Assembly: GCF_029502005.1 (NCBI RefSeq)
Contig: NZ_JAMQOT010000009.1
Span: 1 to 64,000, forward strand
DNA: 64,000 nucleotides
Reading direction: 5' to 3'
DNA from: Natrinema salsiterrestre
GTDB lineage: Archaea > Halobacteriota > Halobacteria > Halobacteriales > Natrialbaceae
Shown one piece after another: positions 32,783-55,830 of the stretch. Below the pieces are notes generated by a model. It was not told the DNA's origin and did no database searches. It saw nothing but the letters and a program-made list of their open reading frames with translations. The number at the start of each line of letters is the position of its first letter. Within the stretch, counting starts at the first letter, position 1. The position numbers and the translations under genes are program-made.

Positions 32783-32908
32783 CGAAACCAGATCAGTCCT
32801 GTGCGCGCAGTTTTATGACGATATTATCGGTTGAGACATGGATTACCGAAAATCATTCAAGGATCTGAACCACCGTTCTTATTTATAGCGCGTGAAAATA
32901 TACGCTCG

Positions 32909-33493
32909 ATGAGCGAGTATGGATGTAAAGTCTGCCGAGTATTAGACGAGTACGGAATGGAGCGCTACGAGGAGCAACTACTCGAGCAGTGGCAAGCAGA
33001 CGCCTCTCAGCGGAAGGGATATCGACAACTCGCTGAGTGGTTCAATACTCTCATGTTGCGCCGCGAGATGGATCGTGCGGGCCTTTCGACGCTCGGTGAT
33101 GAAGCAGAGTCCAAATACGATCGGTTGCAGTCGGACGAAGCGGTCGCAGCGGAGGTCGCAACAGAATTAGAAAATGCAGGGATTCCGATTAATACATTAC
33201 GGGACGATTTCGTTTCGTACGGTGTGATCCGAACGCATCTGAAGGAGTGTCTCGAGTCCGATGTCGATCTGTCGAGCGGGGACTGGGAACGGAATGCGAT
33301 CGAGATCTCACGGGACCATGCGACCACGAAAATCGAAGAGGCAGTCCGATCGCTCCGAAACAAGGGACGGCTCACCGCCGGCGGCGACGTGAGTATTTCA
33401 GTTACTGTCGAACTCGAATGCGAGAACTGTCACGCCCGCGTTCCTTTCGATCGGGCGATCCGTCGCGAATACATCTGTCGTTGCGATGAGTAA
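32909..33493 (+). CDS. rdfA: Rod-determining factor RdfA family protein
   Basis: RdfA is described in Haloferax volcanii as needed for rod-shaped cells. This 194-residue protein matches the family by its opening MSEYGCKVCRVLDEYGMERY (Cys6 and Cys9), the helical middle (GYRQLAEWFNTLMLRREMDR), and the C-terminal putative zinc site CENCHARVPF plus CRCDE. The ATG at 32909 follows a region without coding features; a longer frame from 32831 is unlikely. It is followed after 2 bp by the SMC-like gene, the same pair that occurs in H. volcanii. A copy on an accessory replicon suggests a paralogue, but the rest of the genome is not seen. Confidence 0.88.
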   Translation: MSEYGCKVCRVLDEYGMERYEEQLLEQWQADASQRKGYRQLAEWFNTLMLRREMDRAGLSTLGDEAESKYDRLQSDEAVAAEVATELENAGIPINTLRDDFVSYGVIRTHLKECLESDVDLSSGDWERNAIEISRDHATTKIEEAVRSLRNKGRLTAGGDVSISVTVELECENCHARVPFDRAIRREYICRCDE

Positions 33494-33495
33494 CC

Positions 33496-35349
33496 ATGAC
33501 TGACCGAACACTTCACCTCGAATTAGAGAATATCGGCGGCATCGAACACGAAGAGCTATCGATTACTGCAGGCCCCACGTTCATTCAGGGTCCAAACGCC
33601 GCGAACAAGAGCTCGTTCCTCAAGGGACTGCTCTTCGCACTCGGAAGTACGACGGTTCCGATCCGAAGCGGGGCCGACGAGGCTCGCGCGGTGCTTTCCT
33701 CCGAGAATAAACGCGTCGAGCGAACCGCTCGACGGACCGACGCCGGTATCGAGACGGCAGGCGAGGCGTGGATCACGGATCCCGAGGAGATCACGCTCCT
33801 CGAGCGGTTCGCGGGTCTGTTGGAGACGAATTCGCTCAGAAGCGCCGTCGCTCGGAACGAAGACATCGAATCGCTCCTGAAAGAGCCGATGGACATCGAA
33901 GCGCTCGAAGAGGAACGAGCGTCGAAGATGGCTCGAAAGCGGGAGCTCACGACGGAGATCGAGTCGGCCGGTGACGTCGACGAGCGCCTCGGGGACCGAG
34001 AACGGGAACTGACGGAGAAGCGCAACCGACTCGACGAACTCGAGTCGACCCTTGAGGAACTATACGATGAGCAGGACACCACCGATGCCGACACCGACGA
34101 CGTCGTCCAGGAATTGCGAGACGAACGAGCCGATCTACGATCGGACGAAACCGAGTGTGAAACTCAAATAAAACAGCTCGAAGCTGCTATCAATCGCCTC
34201 GAGGGGCGACGCGACGAGATCGAAGACGAGCTCGAGGAGGCTCGTGACGCCGTCGATGAGAACGATATCGAATCCCTCAAACAGCAACGCGAGTCCGCTC
34301 GCTCCGAACTCGACGATGTGACGAAGCGTCTCGACGTACTGCAGTCGGTCCTCACCGCGAATCGTGAAATGGTCGATTCCGAGTTTGCGGGCGTACTCGG
34401 CCGCGAAACGGGATTGATGGGCGACGAAGTGACCTGCTGGACGTGTGGCCGATCAGCACCGGTCGAGGAACTCGAGGAAACGCTCGAGGAGCTGACGACA
34501 CTCGTCACGGAGGACAAACGCCGAAAGCGCGAAAGAGAACCGGAGATCGAGGCGCTTACCGAACAGATCGAGGAAGTTCAACGCTCGAAAACGGAAATAC
34601 AGCAGCTCGAAGCGGAGAAACGGGACGTTGAGCAGAAGCTAACGAACCGTCGTGACTCCCTCGAGGAACGACGTGACCAGCTAGAGTCGATTCGGGATCG
34701 ACTCTCCGAACTCGACGACGAAATCGCCGATCAGGCGGCCGACCAGCGCTCTGAACAGTCGGAGCTCACCGACGACATCGAAGAGACACGAGTCGAAATA
34801 GAGACGCTTCGACGGGAGATCACACGACTCGAGGAGACCATCGATTCCCTCCGCGAAACCCGCGAAGAACTGGAACGCAAACGCGAGAAGATCGACCAAC
34901 TCTCCGACGAGATCACCGCTTTAACCGACCGGATCGAAAACCTTGAAGACGAACTCCGAGACGTGTTCAACGAGACGATGGACGAGCTGCTGGACGCGCT
35001 CGAATTCGAACGCATCGAACGTGTCTGGCTCGACGGCGAGTTCGAACTCGTGATCGCTCGGGAAGTCGACGGCCGAACACGATCCGACTCGATCGAACAT
35101 CTCGCTGAGAGTGAGCGAGAAATGATCGGACTCGTCCTCGCACTCGCCGGATTCGTCACGTACGATGTCGACGCGGTGACACCGGTACTGGTTCTAGACT
35201 CACTGGGTGCGTTCGACGCGGAACGGACTCGCCGGTTGGTCGATTACTTCGCCGACGAAACCGAGTATCTGATCGCGACGGTTCATCCGGAATCGACCGT
35301 CGATACCGCGTTTGATACCGTGACGTTCAATCCACCAGTACAAAATTGA
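33496..35349 (+). CDS. sph3: Archaea-specific SMC-related protein (Sph3-like)
   Basis: A 617-residue SMC/Rad50-like coiled-coil ATPase. The head starts at LHLELENIGGIEHEELSI with a Walker A variant GPNAANKSS. Long heptad-rich arms flank a Rad50-type CxxC hook, CWTCGRSAPV, at residues 314-317. The C-terminal head has VWLDGEFELVIA, a signature-like LAESEREMIGLVLAL in place of the normal LSGG, and a Walker B variant VLVLDSLGAFD where the catalytic Glu is Ser. These changes suggest slow or no ATP hydrolysis, or a family-specific chemistry. It is in one operon with rdfA and probably acts with it in cell-shape control. Confidence 0.88.
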   Translation: MTDRTLHLELENIGGIEHEELSITAGPTFIQGPNAANKSSFLKGLLFALGSTTVPIRSGADEARAVLSSENKRVERTARRTDAGIETAGEAWITDPEEITLLERFAGLLETNSLRSAVARNEDIESLLKEPMDIEALEEERASKMARKRELTTEIESAGDVDERLGDRERELTEKRNRLDELESTLEELYDEQDTTDADTDDVVQELRDERADLRSDETECETQIKQLEAAINRLEGRRDEIEDELEEARDAVDENDIESLKQQRESARSELDDVTKRLDVLQSVLTANREMVDSEFAGVLGRETGLMGDEVTCWTCGRSAPVEELEETLEELTTLVTEDKRRKREREPEIEALTEQIEEVQRSKTEIQQLEAEKRDVEQKLTNRRDSLEERRDQLESIRDRLSELDDEIADQAADQRSEQSELTDDIEETRVEIETLRREITRLEETIDSLRETREELERKREKIDQLSDEITALTDRIENLEDELRDVFNETMDELLDALEFERIERVWLDGEFELVIAREVDGRTRSDSIEHLAESEREMIGLVLALAGFVTYDVDAVTPVLVLDSLGAFDAERTRRLVDYFADETEYLIATVHPESTVDTAFDTVTFNPPVQN

Positions 35350-41268: not shown

Positions 41269-42798
41269 CTATTTCAGATTCGTTTTGATGATTTTCCCGG
41301 TCGGATTTCGTGGAAGCTCCTCGTAAAACTCTACCTCGCGGGGTTTTTTGAAATCAGCAATACGACTACCGACGTATTCCGCAACCCCCTCGGCGGCCAT
41401 CGTCTCTCCATCGTGGAGGACCACGGCCGCCTTCACCCGTTCGGTCCACTCTTCGTCTGGAACGCCGACGACGGCTGCCTCGGAAATGCTCGCGTGTTCG
41501 TGAAGCACTTCCTCGATTTCCGCGGGATGGATGTTTTCCCCACCGGAAATGATCATATCATCGTGTCGTCCGACGAAATACAGGAACCCGTCCTCGTCCC
41601 GTCGTACGAGATCTGACGAGACGAAATAGCCCTCATCGTCGAATACTTCCCGGGTCTTTTCGGGCATTCCGAGGTACTTTTCGAACGCAGTCGGCCCGCG
41701 GTACGCGATCCGACCGATTTCACCGGGTTCGACCTCTTTGCCGTCATCGTCGACCACTTTGACCGCGACGTTGACGATCGGCTTTCCGATACTCTCGGGC
41801 TTCTCGAGCGCGTTCTGCGGGTCGAGTAGACAGGTAACGGGAGACATCTCGGTCTGACCGAACACCTCGTACAGGTTCGCGTCGAACGAATCGATGATTT
41901 CCTCTTTGAGCTCCTCTCCGGACGGTGCCGCACCAGTCATGTAATGTTCGAACGAACTGATATCGTAGTCGTCGAACCCATTGACGTTCAGCAGTGCGCG
42001 ACTCATCATCGGGACGAAGAACGATCCGGTGATAGCTTCGGCGTCGATGACGTCCATCACCCGAACTGGATCGAAATCGTTCATCAAATACGTCGTCGAT
42101 CCGCAGTAGAAGGTGTTGTTGAACAGCGCGAACGCCGCGATATGGAAGAGCGGTGTGACGACGAGGAACCTGTCCTCATTTTCACCGAAGTTACAGCTGT
42201 ATACCGTGTTCACCGAGTTCTGAATGACGTTATCGTGTGTGAGAACGCAACCTTTCGGCTTTCCCGTCGTCCCACTGGTGTACATGAGTGCAGCGTCGTC
42301 GAGCCGGTTCGGCACTACTTCGACCCGGTCGTCGGAGACGTCTTCACAGGCGTCGTGAAACCCGTCGGCGAAGTCGGGTACGTCCGCACCGAGGTACAGG
42401 TACTCGTCGATTTGCGTCTCGGACTGCGAAGCGACCGCCGAGATCGTCTCTTTCGCGTCGCTGTCGAAGACGCAGAACCCCGCGTCGCTGTCTCTGAGAA
42501 CGTAACTGACTTCATCGTCTTTGAACCGATGGTTGATCGGCACCGGCAGAGCACCGAGTTTCATCGCGGCGTAGTACGTCTGTATGGTCTCCGGGTGGTT
42601 CTGCATGTAGACTGCGACCCGGTCTCCCTCCGAGACGCCGCGGTTCGAGAACATCCGTGCGATTCGGTTCACTCGGTCGTCGAACTCGCGGAACGTGATC
42701 ACGTCTCGACCGCCGCCGGTGAGGGTCACGAGGCAATCGTCCTCGGGATATTTTCGCGCATTCGTCACAGCGATGTCTCCGAGGGTCAATCCGTCCAT
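41269..42798 (-). CDS. Acyl-CoA synthetase (AMP-forming)
   Basis: A 509-residue ANL-family ligase. Motifs are MYTSGTTGKPKGCVLTHDNV, FGQTEMSPVTCLLDP, SSDLVRRDEDGFLYFVGRHDDM (A7/A8 hinge) and catalytic Lys in RNPTGKIIKTNLK at the very end. Its family position is close to medium or long-chain fatty acyl ligases, but specificity is uncertain. The start is about 205 bp from the 23-bp palindrome at 43003-43025, which in the same orientation also precedes the thiolase at 54682. Confidence 0.92.
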   Translation of the reverse strand: MDGLTLGDIAVTNARKYPEDDCLVTLTGGGRDVITFREFDDRVNRIARMFSNRGVSEGDRVAVYMQNHPETIQTYYAAMKLGALPVPINHRFKDDEVSYVLRDSDAGFCVFDSDAKETISAVASQSETQIDEYLYLGADVPDFADGFHDACEDVSDDRVEVVPNRLDDAALMYTSGTTGKPKGCVLTHDNVIQNSVNTVYSCNFGENEDRFLVVTPLFHIAAFALFNNTFYCGSTTYLMNDFDPVRVMDVIDAEAITGSFFVPMMSRALLNVNGFDDYDISSFEHYMTGAAPSGEELKEEIIDSFDANLYEVFGQTEMSPVTCLLDPQNALEKPESIGKPIVNVAVKVVDDDGKEVEPGEIGRIAYRGPTAFEKYLGMPEKTREVFDDEGYFVSSDLVRRDEDGFLYFVGRHDDMIISGGENIHPAEIEEVLHEHASISEAAVVGVPDEEWTERVKAAVVLHDGETMAAEGVAEYVGSRIADFKKPREVEFYEELPRNPTGKIIKTNLK

Positions 42799-43215
42799 AG
42801 TCGCAGTCTCGCTGGTATCATTATAATATTTTTCACGGATGGACTACCGCTTCAACCCCTCAAACTTCGACGTTCACCGCGTTCCCCAGTAGCTCGATCG
42901 TTGCGGGCGGTTTTCTTCGTCGGATCGCCCGAGTACTGACCCTCAGCGAATCGATTTATAGACCTTCGTGCACCCGTTTGAGATCCATCACCTGCACAAG
43001 TAAATAACGACCTAAGTGTGTTATTAGACGGCCCCTTCGAAAACCGTAATATGTCCAGCCAAACCACGGGCTTGTTTGTTACACGATAGCACAGCAGCAG
43101 ACCTGATTCGAGCGCGCTGGGGTGCAGACGAAAACGTTGTTCGGACGAATTGTAGTGTAAGCACTGTCTGTCGTGCAATCCGCCCACGAAGAAGTTCGTC
43201 ACAGAACCGGCCGGG
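42799..43215. other. Upstream region of the acyl-CoA synthetase
   Basis: No gene is supported; a 116-codon minus-strand frame has the composition of noncoding DNA (His, Arg, Ser-rich). TATAATATTTT near 42820 is close to the synthetase start and serves as its promoter. The only other structure is the 23-bp palindromic element. Confidence 0.5.
43003..43025 (-). promoter_or_regulatory. 23-bp imperfect palindrome, copy 1 (ligase side)
   Basis: Read toward the ligase it is AATAACACACT followed by TAGGTCGTTATT. Outer arms AATAAC and GTTATT are complementary. It matches the element at 54465-54487 at 21 of 23 positions, in the same orientation and at nearly the same distance from the following gene (205 versus 195 bp). 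Confidence 0.65.
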
Positions 43216-43443
43216 TCAGGGACGCTCCTCGGTGACCGTGACCCGATAGTAGTCGGTGTATTTTACGATCTCGTACGTCTCCAACATGGCACCGACGCTG
43301 TCCGGCGTCCGAGACACGGTTTCGTCTTCCTCTAGCAAACGAGAGAGACGATTTTTCGCCTGGTCGGCGAGTTGGTCGTAGTGGGAGACGCGCGAGTCAT
43401 GCGGCACTCGTTCGACTGGGGAAAGGCTGATCCACATTGTCAT
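43216..43443 (-). CDS. Small hypothetical protein
   Basis: A 75-residue protein. It begins MTMWISLSPVERVPHDSRVS and continues with a helical core QLADQAKNRLSRLLEEDE and a C-terminal strand region AMLETYEIVKYTDYYRVTVT. Composition and codon use fit a haloarchaeal gene. No family was recognised. It stands alone between the ligase and the enoyl-CoA hydratases. Confidence 0.65.
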   Translation of the reverse strand: MTMWISLSPVERVPHDSRVSHYDQLADQAKNRLSRLLEEDETVSRTPDSVGAMLETYEIVKYTDYYRVTVTEERP

Positions 43444-43557
43444 TTGTCGTATACGATTGTCGTTGGTTGTTCGAACACGACCGTGACGGACGCACGTCGC
43501 GGTCGGTGGCCTATTCGGTCACTGTGGTCAGCGCTCACCGAGCGTCCGACGACGGTC

Positions 43558-44358
43558 TCACTGGCCTTTGAACTCCGGCTCCCGGTTCGCCACGAACGCG
43601 CTGACGCCCTCCGCGTGGTCGTCGGTTTCCGCCGCCGTCGCGATTGCGTCCGTCTCCGCGGCGAGTTGTTCCGCGAGCGAGCGATCGAAACTCCTCGTGA
43701 GAAGCTGTTTCACGGCACCGTACGCTCGCGTCGGCCCGTCCGCGAGCTGCCGCGTCAGTTCGTCGAGACGCGCATCGAATTCGTCATCCGGAACGGATTC
43801 GGTCGCCAGACCCCACTCGACGGCTTCTTCCGGCGAGATCGGCTCGTCGAGTAAGGCGATGTCTTTCGCCTTCCGGAGGCCGACGAGCCGCGGGAGATGG
43901 AACGTCGCACCGCCGTCACCCGGGAGCCCGAGGCGCGGATAGCCGTATTCGAAGCGAGCGTCCTCGCTGATCAGGACGAGATCTCCGAGGAGGGCGATAC
44001 CGAGGCCGGCACCGGTCGCGACGCCGTTGACGCCGGTGACGAGCGGGACGTCCGCCTGGTGGAACTGGACGATCGCATCGTGGAGAATCGATGCGCCGAC
44101 TCGCACGGAATCGGATCGATGACCGTCTTCGTCGAAGCTCTCGACGTCGGCGCCGGCACAGAATACGCCGTCAGATCCCGTCATGACGGCACATCGCGCG
44201 CTGTCGTCGGCGTTGAGAAACGATGCGATCTCGAGCAGTTCGTCGCCCATCGTGTCGTTGAGCGAGTTGAATTTCGTCGTACTGTCGATCGTGATGGAGA
44301 CGATACCGTCGTCTCGTTCGAGAACGAAGTTCTCACACTCCGGCAGTGATCGTGCCAT
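43558..44358 (-). CDS. Enoyl-CoA hydratase/isomerase family protein, 1
   Basis: A 266-residue crotonase-fold protein. The oxyanion segments are FCAGADVESFDE and GVNGVATGAGLGIALLGDLV; the active-site loop is YPRLGLPGDGGATFHLPRLV, which has the Asp-Gly-Gly form found in PaaG-like isomerases rather than the two Glu of classical hydratases. The tail ends with the standard FVANREPEFKGQ. The ATG at 44358 was chosen; the longer frame upstream is basic. A second family member follows upstream on the same strand with a 133-bp gap. Confidence 0.9.
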   Translation of the reverse strand: MARSLPECENFVLERDDGIVSITIDSTTKFNSLNDTMGDELLEIASFLNADDSARCAVMTGSDGVFCAGADVESFDEDGHRSDSVRVGASILHDAIVQFHQADVPLVTGVNGVATGAGLGIALLGDLVLISEDARFEYGYPRLGLPGDGGATFHLPRLVGLRKAKDIALLDEPISPEEAVEWGLATESVPDDEFDARLDELTRQLADGPTRAYGAVKQLLTRSFDRSLAEQLAAETDAIATAAETDDHAEGVSAFVANREPEFKGQ

Positions 44359-44491
44359 GGTATCACGTATACGTCCCATCGTTATAATTCTCCTGACCAG
44401 TAACGAGCGCCGGTCGACGAAGTTCCGGTCGGACACAGGATTTGCGGCGATTCGGACGACCAGTGGCCGGTTCCCGCCGTCGCCGGATCAG

Positions 44492-45301
44492 TTACCGTCC
44501 CTCGAACTCCGGCTCGCGTCCCTCGAGGCGGGCAGTGAACCCCTCCGTGTAGTCGTGGGTATCGTCGAGCTGTTCGCCGAGCGCCCGTTCGTACGCGAGC
44601 CCGTCGTCGAGGGGCATCTCCAGAGCGGCGTTAAGTGCCTCCCGCGCTCGCTCCATCCCCAGCGGTGCGTTCTCAGCGAGATCGTCCGCTAGCGCTCGAG
44701 CGCGTTCGTCGACCGCTTCCGCGTCGCAGACCTCGTTGACGAGCCCGATTCCTTCCGCCTCTTCGGGGTCGATGAACTCGCCGCTCAGAACGAGTTCTTT
44801 CGCTTTCGCCAGCCCGATCAGGCGCGGGAGTCGTTGCGTTGCCCCGCCGTGGGGGAAGGTACCGAGCTGTACCTCGATGACGCCGTATTTTGCGTCTTCG
44901 GAGATAATCCGGAAGTCTGCGGGAAGCGACAGCTCGAACGCGCCCGCGGGTGCGGCGCGCTTGATGCCGACGACGGTCGGAACGCGCGCGGTATCGATGG
45001 TCTCGATGACGTCACCGAGGAGACTTCCTCCGCTCTCGGCGCCGCGGGACTCGCCCTGCTGGGCCCGTTCGCCGCGATCACGCATCATCTCGAGGTCCAT
45101 CCCCGCACAGAAGACGGGGCCCTCCCCGAGCAGTGCGATGGCGCGGACCTCTTCGTTCGCATCGACCTCCTCGAATGCCTGCTTCAGGTCGGAGAGAACG
45201 TCCTCGTTCAGTGCGTTTCGCTTGTCCGGGCGGTTCAATATGACGTCGGCGCGGTGGCCGTCGATGTCTACGATCACGTGACCAGTGCCAATTTCTCGCA
45301 T
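44492..45301 (-). CDS. Enoyl-CoA hydratase/isomerase family protein, 2
   Basis: A 269-residue crotonase-fold protein. Motifs are NRPDKRNALNEDVLSDLKQA, FCAGMDLEMMRDRGERAQQG, GIKRAAPAGAFELSLPADFR and VQLGTFPHGGATQRLPRLIG. Position of the second catalytic acid is occupied by the sequence FPHGG, so hydratase activity needs testing. Probably acts on the unsaturated product of the acyl-CoA dehydrogenases. It is upstream of, and in the same direction as, the first family member. Confidence 0.9.
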   Translation of the reverse strand: MREIGTGHVIVDIDGHRADVILNRPDKRNALNEDVLSDLKQAFEEVDANEEVRAIALLGEGPVFCAGMDLEMMRDRGERAQQGESRGAESGGSLLGDVIETIDTARVPTVVGIKRAAPAGAFELSLPADFRIISEDAKYGVIEVQLGTFPHGGATQRLPRLIGLAKAKELVLSGEFIDPEEAEGIGLVNEVCDAEAVDERARALADDLAENAPLGMERAREALNAALEMPLDDGLAYERALGEQLDDTHDYTEGFTARLEGREPEFEGR

Positions 45302-45699
45302 ACCAAACGGTCAACCAGATCGACCTTAATTGTACCGCCCGGATGACGTACACTCCCGCTATTCGAACCGTCGTTCGTCGAGTGGTCGGTTCTGAGTATA
45401 CCAGTGCAGCCGCTATCGTCCCCGAACTCCGTTTGTAGTCGTCTTCGGCGAACGTCCCCGCTCCTCTTAGTAATCCTCCGTCTCCAGCAGTCGTTCGACC
45501 AGCCGTCGATCGTATTCTCGTCCCTCTCGCAGGCCGGTCTGTGGTTCGATGTTGCCAGACTCCTTGATCCCCGAACCGAAAGCGACGGCTTCGAAGCGCT
45601 CGAGACCCGTATCGTCGTGGCCGTTCGCAGTCACCTACTGAATACCGCGTACCGAACCTGGTATAGCTTTATCACGTCGAATGGCTAACGGAACACCGT
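45302..45699. other. Divergent intergenic region
   Basis: It separates the enoyl-CoA hydratase from LLM copy B. It contains one small minus-strand frame (listed separately) and AT-rich words GGTATAGCTTTATC near 45659-45672 that can serve as promoters in either direction. Confidence 0.4.
45467..45634 (-). CDS. Possible 55-residue protein
   Basis: A GTG-started frame directly preceded by a stop codon reads ERFEAVAFGSGIKESGNIEP and ends RRLVERLLETEDY. Amino-acid composition is acidic and the third positions are GC-rich as in real genes here. An AT-rich AAAGCTATACC is about 30 bp upstream on the same strand. It may be a real small gene or the end of a lost one. No homologous family was recognised. 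Confidence 0.4.
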   Translation of the reverse strand: MTANGHDDTGLERFEAVAFGSGIKESGNIEPQTGLREGREYDRRLVERLLETEDY

Positions 45700-46698
45700 A
45701 TGACAGACCGTGACGTATTCCTCCCGGTCGGTGCACAGCCGACGCTCGATCAGCTCGTCGATCAGGCGGTTGCCGCGGAGGAACTCGGATACGATCGCGC
45801 CTGGTTCCCCGAATCGTGGGGTCGAGACGCCGTGACGGCGCTCGCGACCGCTGCCGAGCGAACGGATCGAATCGGCCTCGGAACGAGCATCGCCAACGTC
45901 TACTCCAGATCACCGGCGCTGCTCGGACAGACGGCGGCCACGCTGCAGGAGGCCAGCGATGGCCGCTTCCGACTCGGACTCGGACCGAGCGGCCCGCTCG
46001 TCGTCGAGAACTGGCACGGGATGGAGTTCGGCAATCCGCTGCGTCGAACCCGAGAGGCGATCGAAATCGCTCGGCAGGTAGTGGACGGTGAGACCGTCAC
46101 CTACGACGGCGAGTACTTCTCGCTGGACGGCTTTCGGCTGCGCTGTGATCCACCGGAGCCGGCGCCACCTATCGACACTGCCGGACTCGGTCCGAAAGCC
46201 GTCGAGCTCGCCGGTCGTTTCGCCGACGGCTGGCACGCCGTCAACTACACGAGGGGCGGAATCGCCGATCGCCTCGAGGACCTCCGACGCGGCGTCGAAC
46301 TGGGAGACAGGGATCGCGATGATCTCCGCGTCACGCTCTCCGTGAGCTGCTGTGCCCTCGAAGACGGTGAGCGCGCCCGCGAACTCGTCGCCCAACACAT
46401 CGCCTTCTATATCGGCGGGATGGGAACGTTTTACCGCGATAACCTCGCTCGTCAGGGGTACGACGAACTTGCGCACGAGATCCACGACGCGTGGCAGCGA
46501 GGGGAGCGCGACTATGCCACGGATCGCGTGCGGGCGGAGTTACGCGATCAGATGGGCGCTGCCGGCACGCCGGACGAGGCCTGCATGCAACTGGAACGGT
46601 TCGAGTCCATCGACGGCGTCGATGCGATCTATATTTCGTTCCCGCGAGGAGCCGAACCGGACGAGATACACGAGACCATGACCGCGATGGCGCCGTAG
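45700..46698 (+). CDS. LLM-class flavin/F420-dependent oxidoreductase, copy B
   Basis: A 332-residue luciferase-like enzyme, gap-free paralogue of copy A at 36071-37069. Conservation is strongest in the first 180 residues (LLGQTAATLQEASDGRFRLG; GPSGPLVVENWHG; FSLDGFRLRCDPPEPAPP) and weakest in the last 90, which suggests conserved cofactor binding with changed surface or partner. It is followed after 164 bp by an acyl-CoA dehydrogenase on the same strand, but in the reverse gene order relative to copy A. Confidence 0.88.
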   Translation: MTDRDVFLPVGAQPTLDQLVDQAVAAEELGYDRAWFPESWGRDAVTALATAAERTDRIGLGTSIANVYSRSPALLGQTAATLQEASDGRFRLGLGPSGPLVVENWHGMEFGNPLRRTREAIEIARQVVDGETVTYDGEYFSLDGFRLRCDPPEPAPPIDTAGLGPKAVELAGRFADGWHAVNYTRGGIADRLEDLRRGVELGDRDRDDLRVTLSVSCCALEDGERARELVAQHIAFYIGGMGTFYRDNLARQGYDELAHEIHDAWQRGERDYATDRVRAELRDQMGAAGTPDEACMQLERFESIDGVDAIYISFPRGAEPDEIHETMTAMAP

Positions 46699-46827
46699 TC
46701 TATCGGTCTCGATCCTCCGAAGCGGTGGACTGTGTGTTCCCACTCAGCGTCGGAGTGTCGTCCCGATCGGAGCTGATTGCTTCGAACCGATGTCTCTCAC
46801 ATCAGAATGCGTATGTGAACGCCGGGA

Positions 46828-46835
46828 TTTATATG
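46828..46835 (+). promoter_or_regulatory. TATA box of acyl-CoA dehydrogenase copy B
   Basis: TTTATATG within GGATTTATATGTATATTCC lies about 30 bp before the chosen ATG. It supports a leaderless start there and excludes the longer frame that begins inside the LLM gene. Confidence 0.55.
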
Positions 46836-46862
46836 TATATTCCAATACTGTTCTATGTACAC

Positions 46863-48089
46863 ATGGCACAATCAGCCGAGACTAGCCCCGGCGTTTCCTT
46901 CGGGACGGACGACGAGACGGAACTCATCCTCCAGAGCCTCGAGGAGTTCGTCGAGCAGGAAGTGAAACCGATAGCCGATGACCTCGGTGAGACGCTGACG
47001 AACCCCCGGCTCGGACACGAACCGAACGGTCGGCTGACCGACGAGGTGCTCGAGGCGAGACGTGAGGTGCGACGGAAGAGCGCTGAGGCCGGCTTTTACG
47101 CGATGAATATGCCCGAGGCCGTCGGCGGCGAGGACGTGTCGGCCGTCACGTGGTACCGGGCGAACAAGCACCTCGCGAAGCAGGACGTGCCGTTGGCTTC
47201 GAACGTCCTCGCCGGTCCCGGCGGTCCGAAGCCGCTCCTCGCTCAGGCGGAGGGCGAACAAGTCGAGCGGTATCTCGAGCCGGCGATGCGCGCGGAGAAG
47301 ACGACCGCGTTCGGACAGACGGAACCCGGCGTGGGGTCGGACTCGCCGAACATGGAGACGCGGGCCGAGAGAGACGGCGACGAGTGGGTACTCAACGGGC
47401 AGAAGCAGTGGATCACGAACGCGCCGTACGCCGATTTCATTCAGGTCTTTGCGAGGACGACGCCGCAGGAAGAGGCGGGCCGACACGGCGGAATCACGTG
47501 TTTCATCGTCGAGTCCGACGAGTACGAGATCGGGAGCCTGAACAACGCCGTCGGCGCGACCGGCATGCAGGCGGAGGTCCACTTCGACGACGTCCGGCTC
47601 TCGGACGATCGCGTCCTCGGGAGCGTCGACAACGCGTTCTACGACGCGATGTCGTTCCTCGGACTCGGTCGCGTCGAGATCGGTGCGACGGCGGTCGGTC
47701 ACGCTGAGTGGCTGCTCGACGAGGCCACGAACTACGCGAACGAACGCGAAGCGTTCGGCGAGCAGATCGGCCAGTATCAGGCGATATCGCACAAGATCGC
47801 TCGCGGACGCGCGAACGCGCTGGCGGCCGACACCGTCGGGCTCAAATGCGCCTGGCTACTCGATCAGGGCGAGCCGGCGATCGCCGAGTCATCGATCCTC
47901 AAGTGGTTCGCGAGCAACGCGTTCTGGGAGATCGCCGACGACGTCGTCCAGATTCACGGAGCCAACGGCCTCGCCGAGGAAAACCCATTCATGGACCGCC
48001 TCCACCGCGCCCGGATCCAACGGGTCGTCGAGGGAACCGACGAGATTCAGCTCAACACGATCGCCAAACAGTACGGCGTGGAAATGTAA
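46863..48089 (+). CDS. Acyl-CoA dehydrogenase, copy B
   Basis: A 408-residue FAD enzyme, paralogue of 37182-38405 with shared opening GVSFGTDDETELILQSLEEF and shared core VLNGQKQWITNAPYADFIQV. The FAD motif is AFGQTEPGVGSDSPNM, and the catalytic Glu is in RVVEGTDEIQLNTIAKQ. The start is fixed by a TATA box and by similarity of the N-termini of the two copies. It acts with ETF, which is not in the window. The pairing with an LLM oxidoreductase is repeated from copy A. Confidence 0.94.
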   Translation: MAQSAETSPGVSFGTDDETELILQSLEEFVEQEVKPIADDLGETLTNPRLGHEPNGRLTDEVLEARREVRRKSAEAGFYAMNMPEAVGGEDVSAVTWYRANKHLAKQDVPLASNVLAGPGGPKPLLAQAEGEQVERYLEPAMRAEKTTAFGQTEPGVGSDSPNMETRAERDGDEWVLNGQKQWITNAPYADFIQVFARTTPQEEAGRHGGITCFIVESDEYEIGSLNNAVGATGMQAEVHFDDVRLSDDRVLGSVDNAFYDAMSFLGLGRVEIGATAVGHAEWLLDEATNYANEREAFGEQIGQYQAISHKIARGRANALAADTVGLKCAWLLDQGEPAIAESSILKWFASNAFWEIADDVVQIHGANGLAEENPFMDRLHRARIQRVVEGTDEIQLNTIAKQYGVEM

Positions 48090-48281
48090 GCCGGGAGACG
48101 GAGCGAGGAACTCGAGCGTGCTGACCCGGACGCGACCCCGCCGATACGTATCGGCTCCGGTCGTCCGGCTCGCGATCTCCGAAACGGGACCAGGATCCCT
48201 CTCGCCGTACGGCGGCGCTTCTACGGGATGGTTTTGCCGCTAATCGAACCTTATCCATCGTGGATCACCGTATCTATTGGC

Positions 48282-49271
48282 ATGAGCGAACCGAATCGAA
48301 TCGCTGAGACCGATCTCGATGCGACGGTCCACCGGCTGGAGTTCACCGTCGATTGGCCGCCGGGTCACGCGGCGGCGTACGTGATTTCGGGTGACGAACC
48401 GATTCTCATCGACGCAGGCACGCCCGGGGAGCGCGGCTCCGAGGAACTACGCGCCGAACTGAGCGAGCACGGGTACGGTCCGTCGGACATCGAACACGTC
48501 TTGCTCACGCACGGTCACACGGATCACGTCGGCCAGACGCCGACGCTGCTCGAGGCCGGGTCGCCGACCGTCTACGCGCCGAGACAGCTCCGGGATCGAT
48601 ACGAGCGAGAGATGGAAACGGTCGCCGAGAGGACCCGAGCGAATCTACTCGAAGCGGGCCTCGAACCCGAGTACCTCGACTCCGCCAGCGAACGCTTGCT
48701 TTCCGCTCACCGCACCGTGCGCGCGTCGCTTCCCGAGGACGCGGTCGACGTCTGGATCGATGATGCGTCGTTTACCGTCGGGACGCGCGAAATCGAACCG
48801 ATCTATTCTCCGGGACATCATCTCAGTCACTTCTGTTTCGGGACGACGCTCGACGGTGACAGAGTCGTTTTCTCGGGCGATATGGCGATGGAACCGTTCC
48901 GCGCACCGTCGCTACTCGTCAACTTCGACGACGGTGTCGAGGACAGCGTGCGACGGTTTCGAGCGACGTTAGATCGTCTCAAGACGTATCGGTTCGAGCG
49001 GGTGTTCCCGGGCCACGGTCCGGTACACGATCGGTACGAGGCGTGTCTCGACCGATCCATCGCCGATCTGGAGTCTAAACTCGAGCGGTGCCTCGAGCGG
49101 ATCGAATCGGACCGGACGACGGCGTTTCAGATCGCGACGGAGAGGGCGGGCACGGAGCACGGAATCGGTCGAATCTTCGCGGAGACCGTCGGGCTCGTCG
49201 GATATCTCGAGGACCGAGGGGATGTCCGGAGCGTTCTCGAGGACGGCGTTCGATTCTACGAGAGTACCTGA
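48282..49271 (+). CDS. Metallo-beta-lactamase-fold hydrolase
   Basis: A 329-residue two-metal hydrolase. The metal motifs are LLTHGHTDHVGQTP (HxHxDH), YSPGHHLSHFCFG (His), FSGDMAMEP (Asp) and FPGHGPVHD (His). A C-terminal helical extension follows (DRSIADLESKLERCLERIES). It resembles the MBL family members seen in beta-oxidation operons, which may act as thioesterases or lactonases. The ATG at 48282 was chosen because the preceding in-frame residues are not family-like. A same-strand acyl-CoA dehydrogenase follows 116 bp later. Confidence 0.88.
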   Translation: MSEPNRIAETDLDATVHRLEFTVDWPPGHAAAYVISGDEPILIDAGTPGERGSEELRAELSEHGYGPSDIEHVLLTHGHTDHVGQTPTLLEAGSPTVYAPRQLRDRYEREMETVAERTRANLLEAGLEPEYLDSASERLLSAHRTVRASLPEDAVDVWIDDASFTVGTREIEPIYSPGHHLSHFCFGTTLDGDRVVFSGDMAMEPFRAPSLLVNFDDGVEDSVRRFRATLDRLKTYRFERVFPGHGPVHDRYEACLDRSIADLESKLERCLERIESDRTTAFQIATERAGTEHGIGRIFAETVGLVGYLEDRGDVRSVLEDGVRFYEST

Positions 49272-49387
49272 CCGGTTCGCGTACTCCCGTGTGATCAGCG
49301 GACCAGATAGACCGTCTTACGGAGAGAGGTCCGTCGGTAGTGCCGATCGATGCCTTGTTTTATGACAGCTCGTGAGAAGGTGAGTGT

Positions 49388-50554
49388 ATGCCCGTTTCCG
49401 AGACGGAAGTCCACGACTTGATCCGAAGGTCGGTGCGCGAGCTCGCCGCCGAGTACGACGCCGACTACTGGCGCGAGCACATCGATCAGAAGCGCTTTCC
49501 CGGATCGTATTGGCAGGACCTCGCGGACAACGGCTGGCTCGGCGTCGCGATCGACGAGGAGTACGGTGGAGAGGGAATGGGAATGCACGAGATGACGATC
49601 GTTATCGAGGAACTCTCGCGCGCCGGTGGACAAGGGGGCATCATCTTCATTCTGACGCCGGTATTCGGCGGTATCAGCATTCAACGACACGGGACCGACG
49701 TCCAAAAGCGCGAATACCTCCCGGAGATCGTCGACGGAAACTGCCGGTTCTGTATGGGGTTGACCGAACCGAACGCCGGGACGAATACGCTCTCGATCGA
49801 GACGACGGCCGAACGGGACGGTGACGAGTTCGTGATCCACGGCGAGAAGACCTTCATTAGCAGCGTTGAAACCGCCGACGAGATGTTACTCGTCGCGCGT
49901 ACCTCCGAACTCGATCCCTCGGATCCGACTCGCGGCGGAACACTCTTCCTCGTTTCCGATCCTGCCGAGCGCGACGCGATCTCGCTGTCGACGCTCGACA
50001 CGGCAGTGCCGTGGTTCGAAGAACAGTATCGAGTCAATATCGATGGCTTACGCGTTCATGAAGACGACATCCTCGGAACCGAGGACGACGGGTTCAGACT
50101 CATGTTCGATACGCTCAATACCGAACGGATCGCCGGTGCGGCGAGTGCGCTCGGTGACGGACTTCGGGCCGTCGACCTCGCAGTCGAGTATGCCAACGAC
50201 CGCGAGGTGTTCGGGCAACCGATCGGCGCCCACCAGTCGGTCCAACATCCGCTGGCCGAGAGCTACGCCAAGCTCCTCGCCGCCCGCCAGATCACCTACA
50301 GTGCCGCTGCGAAATGGGACCGTGGCGAGGACTGTAGCATGGAAACGAACGCGGCCAAACTGCTCTCGAGCCAGTTCAGTACCGAAGCCGCGTCACAGGC
50401 GATTCAGACCCATGGGGGGAACGGATTCACGAAGGAATACGAGGTCTACGACCTCTGGCAGAATGCGCGCGTGACGGAAACTGTACCCGTTTCGAACGAA
50501 ATGGCGAAGAACCACATCGCGGAACATCACCTCGGACTCCCCCGCTCGTATTGA
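49388..50554 (+). CDS. Acyl-CoA dehydrogenase, third, distinct type
   Basis: A 388-residue FAD enzyme from a different subgroup than copies A and B. Motifs: YWQDLADNGWLGVAIDEEYG, FCMGLTEPNAGTNTLSIETT, IHGEKTFISSVETADEMLLV, YRVNIDGLRVHEDDILGTED and HGGNGFTKEYEVYDLWQNAR. The usual EGT motif near the C-terminus is replaced by VTETVPVSNEMAKNHIAE, as in a known subgroup of acyl-CoA dehydrogenases. The catalytic base may be this Glu. It is 104 bp before an acyl-CoA ligase on the same strand. Confidence 0.92.
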   Translation: MPVSETEVHDLIRRSVRELAAEYDADYWREHIDQKRFPGSYWQDLADNGWLGVAIDEEYGGEGMGMHEMTIVIEELSRAGGQGGIIFILTPVFGGISIQRHGTDVQKREYLPEIVDGNCRFCMGLTEPNAGTNTLSIETTAERDGDEFVIHGEKTFISSVETADEMLLVARTSELDPSDPTRGGTLFLVSDPAERDAISLSTLDTAVPWFEEQYRVNIDGLRVHEDDILGTEDDGFRLMFDTLNTERIAGAASALGDGLRAVDLAVEYANDREVFGQPIGAHQSVQHPLAESYAKLLAARQITYSAAAKWDRGEDCSMETNAAKLLSSQFSTEAASQAIQTHGGNGFTKEYEVYDLWQNARVTETVPVSNEMAKNHIAEHHLGLPRSY

Positions 50555-50658
50555 TCCAACTGGGCCGCAGGGACGGCCGATGGGTTCCCCGATCGTGGGC
50601 GCTGGTCCTTCCTGACAGACGAAAAAACTATACCTCCTTTCAGTATACGTGGTATCAT

Positions 50659-52287
50659 ATGACATACGAGAGTGTGTACGAGGCTGTGTATGACCAGTAC
50701 GAGACGGACGCGAGCTGGGACGAACACGCCCACGTCGGGGACAGAGAGTCGCTCAATATCGCAACCGAATCCCTCGGTCGGCACGCATCGTCGGCGGACA
50801 TCGGGCTTCGAATCCGGGACTTCGAGAGCGGCGAGACCGAGACGTACACGTTCGCTGAACTCGACGCCGCCGCGAATCGAGTGAGCAATTACCTGGACGC
50901 ACACACCGAACGCGGCGACCGAATCGGCGCGATGCTCCCGACGCAGTTCGAGCTATACGCCGTCGTCTTCGGGACGATCAAGGCCGGCCGGATCTATCTC
51001 CCGCTCGCACCGATGTTCGGCCCGGACGCGCTGAACTACCGCCTCGAGGACTCGGGAGCGACCACGTTGTTCACCACGGCTGACGGCTGCGAGACCGTCG
51101 ACGGGAGTCTCCCCTCGCTCGAGCGCGTCGTCACGGTCGACGACGGACGCGAAGCGATCGACGGCGACGTGACGGTGGACGACTACGACGCGGTCCGCGA
51201 TCGGTCCGAGACGTTCGACCCTGTCGAGACGCACCCGAACGACCCGTACACGCTGACGTACACGTCAGGGACCACCGGGCCGCCGAAAGGGGTATTGAGC
51301 AGTCACGGTGGGGTAATCGAGCTTCACGCGTACGCGGAATACGTCGCCGACGTTCGCCCCGACGATGTCTATCTGGTCGCCGCGTCACCGTCGTGGTCGT
51401 ACGGGCTCAACATGGGAACGGTCATGTCGGGCATTCGAGGGACCGCGATCGGTTGCTATCGCGGGCAGTTCGATCCCAACGCGTTCTTCGAAACCCTCGA
51501 GGCGTGGGACGTCGACAACGCGATGATACCGCCCACGGCCCTCCGGCAGTCGCGAGCGGGCGGAATCGATCTCGAGGCGTACGACATCGATCTCCGCGTG
51601 CTCCTCTCGGCCGGCGAATCGCTCGACGAGGATACCGTCGAATGGTGTGAAGACGGTCTGGGCGCACCACCGCAGGACGCCTACGGGTTAACGGAGGCCG
51701 GTATGGTGGTCTGTAACTACGCGTTCGACGACTGGGAGGTAAAGCCCGGGAGCATGGGGAAAGTCCTCCCAGGGGTCGAGGTAGCGTTACTGGACCGGGA
51801 CGGCGACGAAGTCGAACAGGGCGACGTCGGTGAAATCGCCGTCAAACGCGATGCGGACGCGCACGGATCGTACTGGGGCCGACCAGAGGCGACGCTCGAG
51901 ACGTTCACCGGCCGCTGGCTCAGAACCGGCGATCTGGCGCGGCGAGACGAGGACGGATATTACTGGTACGTCAGTCGCGCGGACGACGTCATCATCTCCG
52001 CCGGCTATCGCATCGGTCCGGCGGAGGTCGAGGAAACGTTACTCAACCATCCCGCGGTCGAGGAAGCGGCCGTCGTCGGTACGGATCACGAGACTCGCGG
52101 CGAAATCGTCAAAGCGTACGTTACCCTCGTCGACGACTACGACCCGAGTGAGGGACTGACCGATGAACTTCAGGAGTTCGCCCGAGACGAACTTTCGAAA
52201 CACGAGTACCCTCGTGAGCTCGAATTCCTCGACGAACTCCCCAAGACCGCCAGCGGGAAAATAAAGCGGTCCGCTCTCGAGGGGTGA
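50659..52287 (+). CDS. Acyl-CoA synthetase (AMP-forming), benzoate-CoA-ligase-like
   Basis: A 542-residue ANL enzyme. P-loop TYTSGTTGPPKGVLSSHGGV, A5 YGLTEAGMVVCNYAF, hinge TGDLARRDEDGYYWYVSRAD and catalytic Lys KTASGKIKRSALEG. The DDVIISAGYRIGPAEVEETL segment and the arrangement GWSYGLNMGT-like text (SWSYGLNMGTVMSG) place it near medium-chain/aromatic acyl ligases; the exact acid is unknown. The ATG at 50659 begins MTYESVYEAVYDQYETD; a longer frame overlaps the preceding gene and is arginine-rich. Confidence 0.92.
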   Translation: MTYESVYEAVYDQYETDASWDEHAHVGDRESLNIATESLGRHASSADIGLRIRDFESGETETYTFAELDAAANRVSNYLDAHTERGDRIGAMLPTQFELYAVVFGTIKAGRIYLPLAPMFGPDALNYRLEDSGATTLFTTADGCETVDGSLPSLERVVTVDDGREAIDGDVTVDDYDAVRDRSETFDPVETHPNDPYTLTYTSGTTGPPKGVLSSHGGVIELHAYAEYVADVRPDDVYLVAASPSWSYGLNMGTVMSGIRGTAIGCYRGQFDPNAFFETLEAWDVDNAMIPPTALRQSRAGGIDLEAYDIDLRVLLSAGESLDEDTVEWCEDGLGAPPQDAYGLTEAGMVVCNYAFDDWEVKPGSMGKVLPGVEVALLDRDGDEVEQGDVGEIAVKRDADAHGSYWGRPEATLETFTGRWLRTGDLARRDEDGYYWYVSRADDVIISAGYRIGPAEVEETLLNHPAVEEAAVVGTDHETRGEIVKAYVTLVDDYDPSEGLTDELQEFARDELSKHEYPRELEFLDELPKTASGKIKRSALEG

Positions 52288-52489
52288 GTCGCTGGGAATC
52301 GAGCGATTCGAGTGCTTTTGATTCGAGACGACGATACGGATTCCGAGGCACTGAACGCGCAGTCTCCAATTCTCAGTGTCGCGAAAAAATTTCCGACTGG
52401 ACGGTTCGATGAATCGCGCTCGAGGTCCTGCCGCGGCTGCTTGTCTTCGCGCCGAGAACGGTAACCAGATGGGCGATACTATTAATACG

Positions 52490-52497
52490 GGCCGTCT
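52490..52497 (+). promoter_or_regulatory. TATA box of the third island acyl-CoA synthetase
   Basis: TATTAATA within GATACTATTAATACGG lies about 22 bp before the chosen ATG, compatible with a short-leader or leaderless transcript. Confidence 0.5.
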
Positions 52498-52514
52498 TGT
52501 GTCCTTGGTACACG

Positions 52515-54191
52515 ATGGCACACATCGACCAATACCATTTCTACGAGCGTGATTGGGAGAGCTACGAACAGCTCCGCGAATCCTTCGAATGGGAGATTCC
52601 CGACCAGTTCAATATGGCGGAGTACGTCTGTGATCGATGGAGCCGTAATCGCGGGCGCGTCGCGTTCTTCGCGGAGGACGAAGCGGGGGACCGTCGGACG
52701 CTCACCTTTCGCGATGTACAGATCGAGGCGAATCGCATCGCGAACTACCTCTCGGAGGCGGGAGTGACGCCGGGCGACAGAGTTGGGATCTGTCTCGGGC
52801 AGCGCCCGGAGGCCGCCGTCGGCCATATCGCGGTGTGGAAACTGGGCGCCGTCTCCGTCCCGCTCAGTACGCAATTCGGGGACGACGCGCTCGCATACCG
52901 ACTCGACGACTGTCGCGCCGTCGCTTGTATTGTCGACGGGTCCAGTGTGGATACCCTCCGGTCGATTCGTAGTGATCTCGAGGCGCTGGAGACGGTGCTG
53001 ACCATCGGGGCGGACCCGGTGCCAACGGAAACGACCTGGGACGCAGTCGAGCGTCGATCTCCGCAGCAGTTCGAAACGGAGGAAACGAACGCCGACGACG
53101 ACGCGATCATCATCTATACGAGCGGCACGACCGGCGAGCCAAAAGGTGTGCGTCACGCACATCGGCTGTTGCTCGGTCACTTACCGATGTTTGCCGAGAA
53201 TTTCATGGAGACGGGAACGGCGGACGAAAGCGTGTTCTGGACCCCCGTCGAATGGTCGTGGATCGGATCGCTGTTTTCGGTCGTGATGCCGACGCTATAC
53301 TACGGCCAGCCGGTCGTCGCGTACGATACCGATCGGTTCGACGCCGAATCGGCGTTCGGCCTCATCGAGCGATACGGGATAACGAACCTCGGGGCACCGA
53401 CGACGGCACTGCGGATGATGATGCAGGTCGACGATCCCGCGGATCGATACGCACTGGAGACGATTCGGCACGTCGCCGCAGGCGGTGAGGCGGTCGGTGA
53501 AAGCGTTATCAGGTGGGCGAGGGAGACGTTCGATGGTGCGGCCATCGAAGAGGTGTATGGACAGACGGAGGCGAATCTCGTCGTCGGAGACTGTCACTCG
53601 CTGAAGGAGCCTCGGCCGGGGAAGATGGGTCTCGCAGCGCCGGGCCACGATGTAGCGATCGTCGATCCGGAGACGGCCGAACCGATCGACGAACCGGGAG
53701 CGGTCGGCGAGATAGCGGTTCGATACGAGGGGAATCCGGTTTGCTTCCGAGAGTACTGGAACAAACCGGACCGGACCGACCGAAAGGTCCGCAATGGTTG
53801 GTTGCTGACCGAGGATTTCGGAACGGTCGATGAGGACGGCTTCTTCTCGTTCGAAGGCCGCAAGGACGATGTGATCATCACGTCGGGCTATCGAGTGAGT
53901 CCCGAGGAAATCGAGGAAGTGATCGCGAGCCACGTCGCCGTCACGGATGCCGCGGTGATCGGCGTTCCCGACGAAGATCGGGGGAGCGTCCCGAAAGCGT
54001 TCGTGGTCACTAGTGACGATGAATGGCGGACTCCCGAATTGAAAGAGAAACTCGAAAATCGCGTTGCGGATCGTCTCGCCCGCTACGAATACCCGAGGAC
54101 GATCGAATTTCTCGACGAGCTGCCGACGACATCTACCGGCAAAGTCCGACGGCAGTCCCTCCGCGAGCGGGACGGCATCGCGGATTCGTGA
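52515..54191 (+). CDS. Acyl-CoA synthetase (AMP-forming), acetyl-CoA-synthetase-like
   Basis: A 558-residue ANL enzyme. Its opening (YHFYERDWESYEQLRESFEW, FNMAEYVCDRW) and motifs IIYTSGTTGEPKGVRHAHRL, EWSWIGSLFSVVMPTLYYGQ, YGQTEANLVVGDCHSL and DDVIITSGYRVSPEEIEEVI resemble medium-chain acyl-CoA synthetases of the acetyl/propionyl type. Catalytic Lys is in TSTGKVRRQSLRERD. It is the second of two adjacent ligases with a 227-bp gap. They may handle two acids that arise in one pathway. Confidence 0.92.
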   Translation: MAHIDQYHFYERDWESYEQLRESFEWEIPDQFNMAEYVCDRWSRNRGRVAFFAEDEAGDRRTLTFRDVQIEANRIANYLSEAGVTPGDRVGICLGQRPEAAVGHIAVWKLGAVSVPLSTQFGDDALAYRLDDCRAVACIVDGSSVDTLRSIRSDLEALETVLTIGADPVPTETTWDAVERRSPQQFETEETNADDDAIIIYTSGTTGEPKGVRHAHRLLLGHLPMFAENFMETGTADESVFWTPVEWSWIGSLFSVVMPTLYYGQPVVAYDTDRFDAESAFGLIERYGITNLGAPTTALRMMMQVDDPADRYALETIRHVAAGGEAVGESVIRWARETFDGAAIEEVYGQTEANLVVGDCHSLKEPRPGKMGLAAPGHDVAIVDPETAEPIDEPGAVGEIAVRYEGNPVCFREYWNKPDRTDRKVRNGWLLTEDFGTVDEDGFFSFEGRKDDVIITSGYRVSPEEIEEVIASHVAVTDAAVIGVPDEDRGSVPKAFVVTSDDEWRTPELKEKLENRVADRLARYEYPRTIEFLDELPTTSTGKVRRQSLRERDGIADS

Positions 54192-54681
54192 GAGATTGCT
54201 CGCGATCGGACCGACGAGACGGGAGTGAGGACCACTCGAACCACGCGGCTCCGAGGCGATTCACCGATGATGTCGCTCCTTTTCTCTTCTTAAAGGGGTA
54301 CTGTGGAGGGTGAGCGATAGGTTCGACGTCCCGTCGTCTCGTAATTATCACGCCCGGTGTGTTGCTAACCCTCTCTGTCACGGCCGAGAAAGCGTCCCCG
54401 ACCGCCGAATGTAATAAGTATTTAAACAATATTAGGCATTTGGATTCCCAACAGCGACCAAAGCAATAACACACTAAGGGCGTTATTAACTATCGGAGAT
54501 TTCGGTTCCGTTCGCCGGAGAAGCAACGAGATCGTTGGGAGTTACCGGATAGCACACGTGGCACAGATCCCTCACCTACGGAGCTAACAAAGGTATCCAT
54601 TCGACTAAAGTAAAACAACTTACATATACCGGAACAGGGCCAAAGCCTATTAGCACCACCGTAGTTACCAAGACACGTACC
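54192..54681. other. Upstream region of thiolase 2
   Basis: No gene supported. It holds the second copy of the 23-bp palindrome, AT-rich DNA at 54412-54435 (AATAAGTATTTAAACAATATT) that may be a promoter, and ACTTACATATACC near 54618-54630, about 55-60 bp from the thiolase ATG. Confidence 0.5.
54465..54487 (+). promoter_or_regulatory. 23-bp imperfect palindrome, copy 2 (thiolase side)
   Basis: AATAACACACT followed by AAGGGCGTTATT. It differs from copy 1 (read toward its gene) at two of 23 positions. Complementary outer arms AATAAC/GTTATT and the shared orientation and distance suggest a regulator binding site common to both genes. Confidence 0.65.
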
Positions 54682-55830
54682 ATGAGAAACGCAGTTATCG
54701 TCGACGCAGTGCGTACCCCGTTCGGAAAACGAGATGGCTCGTTCCGTGACACGCATCCGCAAGACCTCGCGGCGGAACCGCTCGAGGCGCTGCGCGAGCG
54801 CAACGGATTCGAGCCGGAGACGATCGAAGACGTCATCTATGGCTGTGTGACGCCGATGGACGAACAGGGACTCAATATCGCCAGACTCGCACCGATGGTC
54901 GCCGGCTGGGGCGATATCGTCCCGGGCGTGCAACTCAATCGGATGTGCGGTTCGGGACAACAGGCGGCTAATTTCGCTGCATCGAACGTTATGGCCGGCC
55001 AGCACGATGTCCTTATCGCGGGCGGCGTCGAACACATGACCCGCGTTCCGATGGGTTCCGACGCTGGCGGGCTAACGGACACGTACTTCGAACACTTCGA
55101 CGAGCGGACTCATCAGGGCGAGGGTGCCGAGCGCATCGCCGAGGAGTATGACTTTACGCGCGAAGAACTCGACGAGATCGCCGTCGATTCTCAACAGCGC
55201 TGGAAACGCGCCTGGGACGACGGTCGCTACGACGATCAGATCACGCCGGTCGAGACTGAAGTCGACGGTGAGGAAGTCGTCGTCGAGCAGGACGAACACC
55301 CCCGTCCCGGAACCGACATGGATACCCTCTCGGAGCTCCCGCTATCCTTCCGCGACGAGGGTGAAGGGTTCCACCATCCGGGCAACTCCTCGGGAATCGT
55401 CGACGGCTCGTCCGCATTGCTTATCGCGAGCGAGGAGACTGCCGAAGCACACGGTTGGGAACCGATGGCCCGCATCCGTCAGACGGAAGTCGTCGGTGTC
55501 GATCCGGTTACGATGCTGAAAGGACCCATCCCGGCCACCGAGGGCGTCCTCGAGAAGGCGGACATGACGGTCAGTGACATCGACCTCTTCGAAGTCAACG
55601 AAGCGTTCGCATCGGTCGTCGCCGCTTGGCTCGAGGAGACCGGTGCGTCGTGGGAAGACGTCAACGTCAACGGCGGCGCGATCGCCCACGGTCACCCATT
55701 GGGCGCGACCGGGGCGGCGTTGCTAACGAAACTGGCCCACGAACTCGAGCGCACCGACCAGGATACCGCTCTCTCTGCGATGTGTATCGGTTTCGGACAG
55801 GGCATCGCGACGATCCTCGAGCGGGTCTAG
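54682..55830 (+). CDS. Acetyl-CoA acetyltransferase / 3-oxoacyl-CoA thiolase
   Basis: A 382-residue thiolase with the full classical triad: acylated Cys in [20 protein letters not shown], His in [19 protein letters not shown] and the second Cys in [19 protein letters not shown]. The opening [19 protein letters not shown] is standard. It would cleave 3-oxoacyl-CoA to acetyl-CoA. Unlike the first thiolase it has no DUF35 partner, so it is the probable main beta-oxidation thiolase of the island. Confidence 0.94.

Follow-up and report, generated by a model that had tools for sequence, protein, structure and literature searches.

A 23-bp palindrome on a mobile catabolic island of Natrinema salsiterrestre accompanies a clade of RdfA proteins and their SMC-related partner

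The window analysed here, 64,000 nucleotides of Natrinema salsiterrestre (contig NZ_JAMQOT010000009.1, positions 1 to 64,000), carries two copies of a 23-bp palindrome, one before an acyl-CoA ligase gene and one before a distant thiolase gene, and raises the question of which protein reads this element, and in what role. An original prediction took the palindrome for a regulatory site linking parts of a catabolic island and named the IclR and Lrp proteins of the window as candidate binders. Our comparison across haloarchaea points to another reader: the palindrome is likely the cognate DNA site of an RdfA-family protein and its partner ASRP (Sph), an archaea-specific ATPase related to the structural maintenance of chromosomes (SMC) proteins, and together the pair would co-regulate or co-organise dispersed catabolic operons. 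Deletion of RdfA or haloarchaeal Sph alters cell shape and motility.

Both copies lie exactly where they were predicted (Table 1), 205 bp from the start of the acyl-CoA ligase gene (42798) and 195 bp from that of the thiolase gene (54682), and they are identical at 21 of 23 positions. Their common orientation, which had also been emphasised, is uninformative, as the site proves truly palindromic once many copies are aligned; in a third copy beyond the window (86383), the ACAC-type half is directed away from the neighbouring gene lpdA. The claim that the flanks are dissimilar holds only in part, since a related element lies ~51 bp to the right of both window sites. In an orientation expectation-maximisation search, the flanks stood out strongly from shuffles, but relatedness among the sites exaggerates this signal, and we therefore claim the flank elements only modestly. 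Over 100 dinucleotide shuffles of the window, the chance expectation was 0.00 matches at three or fewer mismatches. When the whole genome (4.79 Mb, 27 contigs) was scanned with the strict pattern WATAAC-N3-CTNNG-N3-GTTATW, exactly three perfect matches were found (43003, 54465, and 86383), all on the 123.8-kb contig of the window and spaced 11–43 kb apart; the remaining matches had two mismatches at best. The three sites fall within a mobile island whose genes serve the breakdown of fats and amino acids.

A scan of related genomes, which had been proposed as a check (24 of the same genus and 16 others of the order), yielded more copies, with 2–5 per positive genome, mostly clustered in one region, and almost none in the reversed control. 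Together with the sites of a scan across the order, these copies define a symmetric 33-bit consensus, AATAAC(A/G)n(A/C)CTWAG(T/G)n(T/C)GTTATT. Fifty-eight of the 59 non-redundant copies are intergenic, compared with 15.5% of the same sequence, and TATA-like boxes are ~5 times denser at 20–60 bp from the sites than at 60–150 bp. At three orthologous island positions, the core is conserved at 90–98% and the flanks at 31–59%; the equivalents of site 1 in related genomes have a 98% conserved core between flanks at 42–48%, and those of site 2 a 90% conserved core between flanks at 36–50%. Copies are found at catabolic and transport genes across many genera. The element is a conserved palindrome that lies between genes and near the promoters of a gene set, as befits an operator. 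Its placement, the TATA-like boxes, the conserved core, and the catabolic and transport neighbours lend good support to the view that a regulatory element connects sections of the island. Random placement or membership of a repeat family was looked for, and neither was found. A literature search with the motif letters returned nothing relevant.

The palindrome follows one clade of RdfA. We searched the RdfA of the window against 392 genomes of the order and delimited its clade at no less than 54% identity and 219 bits, the next best match having 48% and 180 bits. With the palindrome called at a score of at least 25 by a matrix from same-genus sites only, to which 4 of the 18 clade genomes contributed, it was present in 18 of 18 RdfA-clade genomes versus 1 of 374 others (Fisher p = 4e-30), and in this lone positive it adjoins a more distant rdfA. 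An rdfA lies within 17 kb of a site in all 23 palindrome genomes, at a median of 4.6 kb; in the window, the rdfA–ASRP pair lies 9.5 kb from the palindrome. Among genomes found later, all five with the RdfA clade were positive (Natronolimnohabitans innermongolicus, Natronococcus pandeyae, Halomarina halobia, Haloglomus irregulare, and, with a weaker site, Salinadaptatus halalkaliphilus), and all three with a more distant RdfA of 35–46% identity were negative (Halolamina pelagica, Natronosalvus hydrolyticus, and an uncultured archaeon).

When the genes near the sites were clustered over 20 genomes, the Lrp, RdfA, and ASRP families ranked first three, and in several genera lrp, rdfA, and ASRP are co-directional and operon-like. 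The neighbouring catabolic genes change between genera (an alpha/beta hydrolase with a peptide transporter, an M20 peptidase with a sodium symporter, an amidohydrolase, a CoA-transferase, or an acyl-CoA ligase), while rdfA–ASRP, mostly with Lrp, and the palindrome are constant. Substrates thus vary and the control module stays; co-inheritance alone would have carried the neighbours along too. In Halocatena marina, the RdfA is sister to the clade (49%), lrp–rdfA occurs without an ASRP gene within 20 kb, and a 31.8-bit palindrome lies 138 bp after rdfA. Because this palindrome has no ASRP nearby, RdfA is favoured over its SMC partner as the reader.

Palindromes also occur at rdfA genes of other clades. 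At a second RdfA clade (~40% identity), we found 22 palindromes of the form nTTAACAgaCTWAGtcTGTTAAn, or TTAAC-N4-CTWAG-N4-GTTAA in short, all situated 124–251 bp upstream of rdfA and often paired at 52–70 bp (loci L225, L259, L261, L265, L272, L273, and L275). A relaxed form of this pattern matched only the known sites and no other in 1.59 Mb of other sequence, and a Lrp of the trio's family was not found near these genes. The tandem arrangement suggests autoregulation by a protein that would bind cooperatively. The inner CTWAG and the TAAC are common to the sites of both clades, base 2 of the half-site is T in the second clade in place of A, and the residues that distinguish the clades concentrate at positions 37–64 of the RdfA domain. 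Outside the clade of the window, a 23–24-bp palindrome with TAAC or TTAC arms occurs at 15 of 38 rdfA loci (−600 to +300), ~40 times the background. Since the second and further clades have palindromes at rdfA itself, RdfA is the most economical reader. A third class of sites was noted near further-clade rdfA genes (loci L102, L104, L117, L118, L125, L126, L129, L130, and L218); these 24-bp palindromes have a core centred on TA and arms of TAACA or TTACA.

The RdfA of the window matches PF21811 over its whole length (1–195 of 195; 178.9 bits, cut-off 27), the only family above cut-off, and a ParB-domain match was absent. The protein is small, with a cysteine-rich C-terminus, and its predicted structure consists mostly of helices. 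The closest orthologue lies on a plasmid of Natrinema salinisoli, a culturable strain. The ASRP matches NF045487 with 493 bits (cut-off 300) and contains a Walker-type P-loop variant (GPNAANKSS), a CWTC (CxxC) zinc hook, and a Walker B-like VLVLDS. In the third member of the trio, the AsnC/Lrp-type protein, the Pfam search matched the helix-turn-helix (HTH) only and not the AsnC ligand-binding domain, and there is a weak full-length similarity to LysM (37.6 bits, cut-off 180). In one Natrinema genome (G016:C1:755639-757455), the ASRP gene is split by a frameshift or stop, and another Natrinema genome, G019, carries a Lrp pseudogene (C1:3461805-3462089) along with an intact copy elsewhere.

We propose that an RdfA dimer binds the 23-bp palindrome and that the SMC-related ATPase would be recruited to the sites or would tether them, with the Lrp-like protein, as a possible ligand sensor, supplying the effector signal. 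The trio would thereby co-regulate the operons that start near the three sites, those of the acyl-CoA ligase, the thiolase, and the dihydrolipoyl dehydrogenase, probably in part by bringing distant sites together. The P-loop variant and the CxxC zinc hook are typical of DNA-bridging proteins, which would suit sites 11–43 kb apart. Our comparison shows the sites, their confinement to the island, their intergenic placement near promoters, their conservation, and their match to this RdfA clade; that RdfA is the binder and binds as a dimer, what its SMC-like partner does, and in which direction regulation goes are what we infer here. More broadly, RdfA–Sph pairs, which are widespread in haloarchaea, may form a family of site-specific, SMC-linked regulators, each clade with its own 23–24-bp palindrome, which would control their own promoter or, with a Lrp sensor on mobile islands, co-regulate or loop dispersed catabolic operons, with the cell-shape effects lying downstream of DNA control; we regard this broader picture as evenly poised. 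The clade-specific palindromes of two RdfA clades offer a direct and cheap binding test and a predicted list of targets. If the proposal is true, portable islands of catabolic genes would provide a case in which an SMC-type ATPase is coupled to a specific operator.

Several observations weigh against this proposal. The clade cut-off was drawn post hoc, and the genomes compared are related and not independent. A clear palindrome was not seen at 23 of the 38 rdfA loci outside the clade of the window, nor was one found at rdfA–sph1 of Halobacterium salinarum or at an rdfA of Haloferax lucentense. The roles of RdfA and ASRP are not fully separable because the two are nearly always paired. The RdfA model (predicted local distance difference test 86.9, predicted template modelling score 0.60) had no significant fold match in the PDB (best E 1.1), and a profile search of PDB sequences gave no clear DNA-binding relative; for this mostly helical protein without a known fold match, DNA binding is therefore deduced from the distribution of the sites. 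The gaps that hold the sites are co-directional in 33 cases, divergent in 14, and convergent in 9, equal to the length-weighted intergenic background, so the sites are not all upstream of a gene start, and a strictly upstream placement is not supported.

The same convergent gaps bear on a different role for the same reader, in which the palindromes would be architectural or loading sites for the SMC-like protein, parS-like with RdfA acting as ParB, rather than operators. The zinc hook of the partner, the nine sites in convergent gaps, as in the intergenic background, and the few intergenic sites per locus spread across tens of kb suit such a role, but the TATA-like boxes crowd within 20–60 bp of the sites, the palindromes remain beside catabolic and transport operons, and the tandem sites of the second clade keep to a narrow, autoregulation-like range upstream of rdfA. 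Several systems lie on 2–4 Mb contigs, so plasmid partition alone is insufficient. We consider this role rather unlikely. An origin by chance, or from pieces of a dispersed repeat, is scarcely credible: nothing was found in its favour, and the empty shuffles and the genome-wide scan, with only three copies in 4.79 Mb and all on one contig, already refute it, as do the symmetric motif, the diverged flanks, and the intergenic placement.

Another protein of the island might read the palindrome instead. The Lrp/AsnC-type protein possesses an AsnC-type HTH and belongs to the trio, its clade occurs with a clean score gap in 22 of the 23 palindrome genomes, and Haloferax has a divergent Lrp-like protein, CsmR, whose binding site is palindromic (PMC13286277); RdfA and ASRP would then be accessory. 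However, the sole palindrome genome without this Lrp has its site next to rdfA, and of the 31 genomes that carry the Lrp clade, 18 are palindrome-positive, while the regions fetched from the other 13 contain no site; these 13 also lack the RdfA clade. On their account, and because no such Lrp was found beside the palindromes of the second RdfA clade, Lrp as the sole reader was rejected, and we find it quite improbable that Lrp reads the DNA with RdfA–ASRP as accessories. IclR genes are also present, at 143–994 of the window and further along the contig at 94186 and 105042, but IclR genes occur in just 5 of 20 site neighbourhoods and that of the window is 42 kb from site 1; with so weak a linkage IclR was rejected, and its binding to the palindrome is highly improbable. 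Neither of the binders originally named is thus supported, and RdfA with its SMC-related partner remains the reading that we prefer. Beside two of the IclR genes (contig ~94149 and ~104634), we noticed 24-bp palindromes of another kind, ATTTACA/GATTACA..GTAC..TGTAAA, possibly an IclR operator type.

Table 1. Features of the palindrome island, in window coordinates unless marked as contig.
Feature	Position	Strand	Remarks
Palindromic site 1	43003-43025	-	AATAACACACTTAGGTCGTTATT; upstream of acyl-CoA ligase gene
Palindromic site 2	54465-54487	+	AATAACACACTAAGGGCGTTATT; upstream of thiolase gene
Palindromic site 3	contig 86383-86405, beyond window		TATAACACCCTAAGTCCGTTATT; 174 bp upstream of the start of the dihydrolipoyl dehydrogenase gene lpdA
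Accessory flank element	43077-43091	.	TGTTACACGATAGCA; 51 bp right of site 1; flank motif search, modest support
Accessory flank element	54540-54554	.	AGTTACCGGATAGCA; 52 bp right of site 2; flank motif search, modest support
rdfA, RdfA-family protein, proposed palindrome reader	32909-33493 (clustered as 32831-33493)	+	PF21811
ASRP/Sph, archaea-specific SMC-related ATPase, proposed partner	33496-35349	+	NF045487; directly after rdfA
AsnC/Lrp-type HTH protein, 161 aa	35439-35924	-	PF13404, E 5.9e-9; third member of the trio
Acyl-CoA ligase (AMP-binding)	41269-42798	-	PF00501; downstream of site 1
Acetyl-CoA acyltransferase (thiolase)	54682-55830	+	PF00108/PF02803, TIGR01930; downstream of site 2
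Small conserved open reading frame, 75-95 aa	43216-43443	-	beside site 1; equivalents in five genomes (that of the window and four others)

The small open reading frame beside site 1 had no match in Pfam and NCBIfam searches. A tyrosine recombinase-like gene (window 30885–32024) lies just upstream of rdfA, which fits a mobile island, and a TFIIB-type transcription factor B gene (contig 87130–88092) adjoins site 3, between this site and a transposase-like sequence. On a plasmid of another genome (G005), two palindrome copies (L061:5300 and L063:9818) have a similar gene order (lpdA-type gene, dehydrogenase, and acyl-CoA ligase), pointing to a duplicated segment of the island.

Bacterial ParB–parS pairs an SMC-type ATPase with a small protein whose palindromic target lies close to the gene that encodes it. 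The RdfA pair, as proposed, resembles this system in both respects. In contrast to ParB, RdfA has no ParB-domain match, its sites are located at catabolic operons or, in the second clade, in the rdfA promoter region, and segregation is not indicated. The coalescin ClsN of Sulfolobus is itself an ASRP and marks transcriptionally inactive regions (PMC9389158). It shares the SMC-related family and has been associated with keeping transcriptionally inactive chromosome regions apart from active ones, but it acts genome-wide instead of at one mobile cluster, and a cognate palindrome or RdfA partner is not described for it (PMC9389158). CsmR of Haloferax volcanii and the Lrp of the trio are both divergent AsnC-type HTH proteins; CsmR affects the expression of rdfA and sph3 and binds the palindromic promoter motif TATCA-N4-TGATA (PMC13286277); this motif is unrelated to the palindrome described here, and the Lrp of the trio tracks that palindrome less well than RdfA does.

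The closest system is RdfA (rod-determining factor A) and Sph3 of Haloferax volcanii, which are required for rods and motility; 84% of the SMC-like genes and 78% of the RdfA genes are paired by adjacency (PMC10869688), and in the window the ASRP gene likewise directly follows rdfA. Both systems belong to the PF21811 and ASRP/NF045487 families and have adjacent genes and several paralogous pairs per genome. In the literature searched, no DNA site or target has been assigned to RdfA or Sph. Whereas RdfA–Sph3 are cell-shape and motility factors without an assigned DNA target, the pair of the window lies on a catabolic island with a Lrp gene and tracks a 23-bp palindrome. RdfA and the SMC-like protein have until now been known solely for their effect on cell shape; the sequence patterns suggest that they are site-specific DNA regulators.

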